A stretch of 23,583 nt of DNA from an uncultured Oscillospiraceae bacterium (GTDB taxonomy: Bacteria > Bacillota > Clostridia > Oscillospirales > Ruminococcaceae): positions 1 through 23,583 of the forward strand of contig URKR01000029.1 in the NCBI GenBank assembly GCA_900548355.1, written 5' to 3'. Both the position numbers and the translations under genes were made by a program. Shown here one piece after another: positions 22,617-23,583 of the stretch. The number at the start of each line of letters is the position of its first letter. The stretch's first letter is position 1. The notes under the pieces were generated by a model. It searched no databases. It saw nothing but the letters and a program-made list of their open reading frames with translations, and was not told the DNA's origin.

Positions 22617-23583
22617 ATGCCGCTTTTGAGCCGTGCGGAATCTCAGTTCCTGCGCCGTCATCTCGCCGCCGCCCGCCAGGTCACGCTGCGCCGGGCGGAC
22701 GGCTGCGTTGTGCGGCTGCATCTGCTGCCGCCGCGCCGCCCGCAGCCGGACCTGCCCTTCCTGCTGCTGCGCAACGGCAGGGACCTGCTGCCTCTGCGCC
22801 TGTCCTGGGCGATCCTGCTTGCCTGCTGGATGGAGACTGTCGAACCGTTTGCCGGCCGCGCCATGACGAAGGAGGAAGCCGCCGCCGCCCGCGCCGATGC
22901 AATCGGCGCGGCGGCCGCCGTCTACCACCGTACCCCGCCGGCCCAGATCGCAACCGATTTTGACGCGCTGCTCGCCACTTTGCTCGACGTTGCCGGAAAA
23001 ACGCCGCTGCGTTTGCCGGAGGTGGAGCTCGGCGCCTATGCGCGGTACATGACCGCCCCGCTGCGGATGGACCTGCACATCAGCGCAATGGTCAAAGACG
23101 GGGCCTGGCACTGCAACCAGAAATGCCTGCACTGCTATGCGGCGCGCCAGCTCTATGCCGAAGCCGAAGAGCTTGACACCGATCAATGGCTGGCGATCCT
23201 GGAAAAATGCCGCACGGCCGGGGTGCCGCAGCTTACCTTTACCGGCGGCGAACCGACGCTGCGCCACGACCTTGTCAAGCTTGTGGCGGCGGCGCAGTGG
23301 TTTGTAACCCGGCTGAACACCAACGGCCGGATGCTGACGCCGGGGCTTTGCCGCGACCTGTGCGAAGCCGGGCTGGACGCCGTGCAGATCACCCTGTATG
23401 CGGCGGAGGAGGAAGTCCACAATGAACTTGCCGGCGCGCCCGGCTTTGCCGATACCGCCGATAAGTTTGCGCTAACCACCCAGCTGCTGCGTATTACCTT
23501 TCCCTATATTTTGCTGATCTCCCTGGCTTCGCTGGTGGGGGCGATCCTTAATACCTGGAACCGCTTCTCGGTGCCGGCCTTTG
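22617..23583 (+). CDS. Radical SAM protein, 3' part replaced by foreign sequence at the window edge
   Basis: The N-terminal ~280 residues are a radical SAM enzyme: CNQKCLHC at 166-173 (the CxxxCxxC iron-sulphur ligands), TGGEP at 209-213, LNTNGR and VQITLYA strands of the partial barrel. Before the cluster lie about 150 residues of a region I do not recognise, rich in Leu/Arg/Ala. The ATG at 22617 has GGGAG eight bases upstream. Substrate is unknown; the CxxxCxHC spacing and N-terminal extension would suit a SPASM-type peptide or protein modifier, but that is a guess. From about codon 274 (23436) the frame reads into MurJ-like sequence (see next entry), so the true C-terminus is missing. Confidence 0.8.
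23436..23583 (+). other. murJ: Enterobacterial murJ (mviN) fragment joined in frame; probable assembly chimera
   Basis: The translation from [14 protein letters not shown] through [18 protein letters not shown] to [11 protein letters not shown] is, from memory, nearly identical to about residues 113-162 of E. coli-type MurJ, the inner-membrane lipid II flippase. It is a membrane helix region and has no place in a radical SAM barrel. Codons also become more mixed (GCGCTAACC, TATATT, CTTAAT) than in the strongly GC-ending gene before it. The join probably lies in 23436-23460, where both parents may share a GCGCCCGGCTTTGCCGATAC-like word. True recent transfer is possible but much less likely. 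Confidence 0.85.

Follow-up and report, generated by a model that had tools for sequence, protein, structure and literature searches.

Here we show that the apparent radical SAM-MurJ fusion protein encoded at the end of the stretch of DNA analysed (23,583 nucleotides, hereafter the window) almost certainly reflects a mistake in the assembly, with no biological reality. In its reading frame, the start of a radical SAM gene from a Gemmiger-like host is followed by Klebsiella murJ, and the two meet at a short word that both genes share. From the comparison of both parents with the window, the end of the sequence is very probably an artefact, in which an assembler made a misjoin at the shared word and appended murJ to an unrelated gene.

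An open frame carrying two domain families

The frame (22617-23582, + strand) comprises 322 codons, with no stop as far as the window end. The first-pass annotation had described a radical SAM frame running without a stop into MurJ sequence, and the frame is indeed open across the join (Table 1).

Table 1. Segments of the open frame and of the sequence end, in window coordinates
Feature	Positions	Strand	Basis
Radical SAM/SPASM gene, 5' part, codons 1-273	22617..23435	+	Match to the intact homologue P0002, related loci, PF04055
Ambiguous join, fitting both parents (APGFADT plus the first base of the next codon)	23436..23457	+	Comparison of murJ, the Gemmiger relative L005 and P0002
Foreign segment from within Klebsiella murJ, truncated by the window end	23458..23583	+	DNA, residue identity, PF03023

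Pfam assigns two domains to the 322-residue protein (P0001), both above their gathering scores: Radical_SAM at residues 166-282 (PF04055; E = 5.6e-17, 62.9 bits, cut-off 29.5) and MurJ at residues 275-322 (PF03023; 44.6 bits, cut-off 27.4). Alongside PF04055, the cysteines C166-NQK-C170-LH-C173 follow the pattern CxxxCxxC, which we take to be the radical SAM motif, and the two together mark a radical SAM/SPASM protein; the SPASM domain itself, found at residues 390-444 of the intact homologue P0002, was not detected in P0001 by Pfam. The PF03023 match covers only profile positions 87-132 of 451, short of a full multi-pass flippase domain, and the NCBIfam MurJ model TIGR01695 gave residues 274-322 a score of 42.9 bits, far under its cut-off of 235.55. 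Since the end of the frame appears to be an artefact, its Pfam annotation as both Radical_SAM and MurJ is to be discarded. The earlier warning that a "radical SAM-membrane fusion" label would be false is thus supported, the double label being traced to a host gene with a Klebsiella murJ tail.

The two parents of the frame

The host side is represented by P0002, a radical SAM/SPASM protein of Gemmiger-like bacteria (452 aa, with PF04055 and SPASM) which stood in the protein search for a cluster of 152 sequences. Residues 1-280 of the window protein are identical to it except at residue 74. Past the join, P0002 continues as a normal radical SAM/SPASM protein, like ten other homologues aligned alongside, whereas the window copy is without everything past residue 280, SPASM included. 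Given one difference in 280 residues and this ordinary continuation, P0002 is evidently the same species' intact version of the window gene. The N-terminal ~160 residues of P0002 have no Pfam match, and the best NCBIfam matches of the radical SAM protein are PqqE and NirJ2, both far under their cut-offs.

Relatives of the radical SAM gene are present at 47 genome loci, the nearest of them mostly Gemmiger, and the query found matching DNA in 32 of 35 Gemmiger genomes, though in some the match was short or weak. The best eight Gemmiger DNA matches start at the first base of the gene and stop at query positions 839-844, that is, at window 23455-23460, which is where the host match should break. 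Two further genes point to this genus as well. The window's M23 peptidase finds its best match (64%) in the genome titled Candidatus Gemmiger stercoravium (G003, the genome of locus L003) and is matched in all 35 Gemmiger genomes, weakly in G019 and G033; uxaC is also best matched in G003 (85% at the DNA level) and in 33 of the 35 overall, trivially in G033. Because these matches agree in genus, those parts of the first 23.4 kb that were tested seem to come from a single Gemmiger-like genome, and the "GC-rich Firmicute" proposed as the host by the first-pass annotation would be Gemmiger or a close relative, as judged from the loci, the DNA matches, M23 and uxaC.

Eight of ten window proteins searched with Pfam belong to common families (including SAM hydroxide adenosyltransferase, DEAD-box helicase, hexuronate genes, heavy-metal P-type ATPase and M23), and two gave no family. 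At the eight best of the 47 loci (L001-L008; seven titled Gemmiger and one Faecalibacterium), the flanks of the radical SAM gene contained no other gene out of 17 window genes at E <= 1e-8. Three intergenic stretches of the window (8237-8475, 14874-15124 and 22405-22558) have dispersed repeats of 50-113 nt in common, with 73-84% identity. The latter two contain the unit TGTAGGGGCGGG, allowing at most one mismatch; there are five matches to it in the window on both strands against 0.26 expected, and an exact copy of this 12-mer is present at one of 83 loci, counting exact matches only. A near-perfect hairpin with 29-nt arms (93%) and a 3-nt loop lies at 5624-5684, in a stretch that is probably intergenic.

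On the foreign side, a blastn search of plasmid records with 23436-23583 returned four K. pneumoniae records with 99.3% identity over all 148 bases (E = 7e-68), a match far beyond chance. Base by base, murJ in three of these records (CP125156.1, NZ_CP098173.1 and NZ_CP138695.1) agrees with the window at 147 of 148 positions; the sole mismatch, at 23549, is silent, lies at a third codon position and may stem from natural variation instead of a sequencing error, with no bearing on the join. All 49 residues from 274 to 322 agree with K. pneumoniae MurJ 114-162, which makes the first-pass count of "about 49 residues" exact, and its distinction between FSVPAF of Klebsiella and FSIPAF of E. coli follows from the aligned DNA. 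Its placement of the boundary needs a small correction: the MurJ part does lie at the window end, but the murJ-compatible sequence starts at 23436 and not at 23430, and the protein is to be divided before residue 274 instead of between codons 270 and 271, codons 271-273 still being host.

E. coli murJ resembles the tail far less, at 82-83% in the records of the plasmid search and 84-85% in the 20 matches listed from complete E. coli genomes, of which 5375 of 5426 gave matches, all in the 80-90% band. On the 5' side of 23436, the window and the murJ parent are unrelated in the DNA alignment. When the whole window was used as the query, four Klebsiella records were matched among the plasmid records, each at the tail only, and the murJ tail was the only place matched in E. 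coli genomes, in five records at the sensitivity used. The murJ-carrying K. pneumoniae records (CP125156.1, NZ_CP098173.1, NZ_CP138695.1 and NZ_CP138810.1) are all filed as plasmids. The plasmid collection, however, includes one near-complete K. pneumoniae chromosome, CP125156.1, whose length of 5.37 Mb makes it evidently a mislabelled chromosome, and a plasmid-borne murJ was rejected as the source of the tail. Of the 511 residues of the K. pneumoniae lipid II flippase MurJ (L071, in CP125156.1), the window holds only the 49 matched ones, with which no function is possible as such.

The join and its possible origins

From 23436 on, the window follows K. pneumoniae murJ without a difference up to the single mismatch, and the host protein P0002 fits the window as far as the T of APGFADT (23456). 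The next residue is Val (GTN) in the host and Ala (GCC) in murJ, so that the shared word can extend no further than 23457 and measures at most 22 nt. One of the 46 loci that span the join, L005 from a Gemmiger relative, carries exactly GCGCCCGGCTTTGCCGATAC, corresponding to 23436-23455, and then proceeds with host sequence. Taking the P0002 protein, the window DNA and this relative's DNA together, we estimate that the parents probably share 20-22 nt at the join; because they read alike there, the breakpoint can be placed only within 23436-23457. The frame is kept because both genes encode APGFADT.

Under a simple model with independent bases, two random genomes of 2.4 and 5.4 Mb with 50-60% GC share 24-52 words of 20 nt, 6-13 of 21 nt and 1.5-3.5 of 22 nt. 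Roughly 1.5-50 coincident words of 20-22 nt are therefore expected by chance, and no special relation between the two genes is needed. Exact scans of viral_contigs, a collection in which neither parent would readily be encountered, gave no match to the 51-nt junction word or to the shared 20-mer.

The window end shows three features of an inter-genome chimeric contig. Its two sides closely match different organisms (279/280 residues to P0002, 147/148 bases to K. pneumoniae), a short word common to the parents lies at the join, both at the protein level and over 20 nt of L005 DNA, and alleles without the join exist on either side, in P0002 and in K. pneumoniae murJ. The first-pass suggestion of a short-k-mer misjoin is supported by this combination of an intact host gene elsewhere, a tail belonging to one foreign genus and a short word between them. 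An assembler with a short word length (~21) would have departed from the Gemmiger radical SAM gene at a word coincidentally shared with Klebsiella murJ, adding about one read of murJ before the contig stopped; the foreign 148 nt are close to one 150-base read and run to the window edge. We infer the assembler as the source of the error, its word length, the identity of contig end and window edge, and the origin of the tail from a single read.

Multi-k assemblers begin with small k-mers, and chimeric contigs arise from k-mers that are common to related species or made by sequencing errors, according to the relevant part of a review (PMC7299287). The window resembles the chimeric contigs described there for short-read metagenome assembly in that two genomes are joined through shared k-mers. 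The chimeras treated in that part of the review form mainly between closely related species, whereas the parents of the window are unrelated and share one coincident word; moreover, the join of the window preserves the frame, both parents encoding the same seven residues there, which results in a plausible fusion ORF.

A chimeric DNA molecule formed during library preparation or PCR, by template switching at the shared stretch, and then faithfully assembled, would look identical, down to the word common to both parents at the join, and a foreign piece of 148 nt, roughly one read long, would suit it as well. It needs a physical chimera to have formed at one of few shared words, and we judge an error of the assembler to be likelier; we regard this origin as improbable.

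A real and very recent event, in which illegitimate recombination at the 20-22-base word placed Klebsiella murJ in frame inside the Gemmiger-like radical SAM gene, appears far less probable still. Short shared stretches are able to seed illegitimate recombination, and the frame is open across the join, although any in-frame shared stretch would give that. Against such an event stand the near-zero divergence from Klebsiella, the intact allele evidently present in the same species (P0002), a foreign part that is only one read length long and reaches the window edge, and a product that would be left without its SPASM half and with part of a membrane protein attached.

In addition, no second case of the fusion was encountered. 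The protein search scored 7996 candidates, of which 4770 passed, within a length range that leaves out a full-length fusion of ~670 aa; in the best 120 of these 4770 homologues, BLAST with the MurJ tail (residues 281-322) found no match even at E <= 10. Host sequence continues past the join in 118 of the 120, and of the other two, P0011 is short and appears to change frame near the join, while P0117 ends soon past it. Full-length MurJ gave nine alignments with the same 120 (E = 1.6-8.5), all at chance level, one of them to P0012 (32%) across the join region. Of the 47 genome loci, L047 stops before the join; the remaining 46 extend across it, and every one proceeds with host sequence. The recurrence that would mark a genuine radical SAM-MurJ fusion was accordingly seen neither in the 120 listed homologues nor at the 46 spanning loci.

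Firmicutes have MurJ proteins of their own, but a native MurJ-like domain of the host, inherited vertically, is refuted by the 99.3% DNA identity of the tail to K. pneumoniae, set against 82-85% for E. coli murJ, and by the absence of such a domain from the 120 listed homologues.

Related composite sequences and consequences for annotation

Other members of the same gene family also appear composite. P0089 (293 aa, from a 1139-nt contig) starts as a peptidyl-tRNA hydrolase (PF01195), is identical to P0007 over residues 25-115 and to P0002 over residues 92-289, and the two identical blocks overlap by 24 shared residues, a structure that suggests another apparent chimera, formed when related species occurring together were mis-assembled. 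In P0020 (549 aa; contig of 2804 nt), a radical SAM part like that of P0014 and P0016 is followed by PF00905, a penicillin-binding transpeptidase domain (residues 411-513), where the complete SPASM end would otherwise stand; P0020 is possibly a third chimera.

For the window gene, the practical consequence of the misjoin is that Pfam-based annotation would accept both domains, whereas the NCBIfam MurJ model would not. In databases, the ORF might then appear as a "radical SAM-MurJ fusion", or be taken as a sign that Klebsiella and Clostridia have exchanged genes. A clean in-frame misjoin at a coincident word of ~21 bases provides a useful caution and a test for filters. The problem disappears if the sequence is made to end at 23435, and the gene then stands as a partial radical SAM/SPASM protein.
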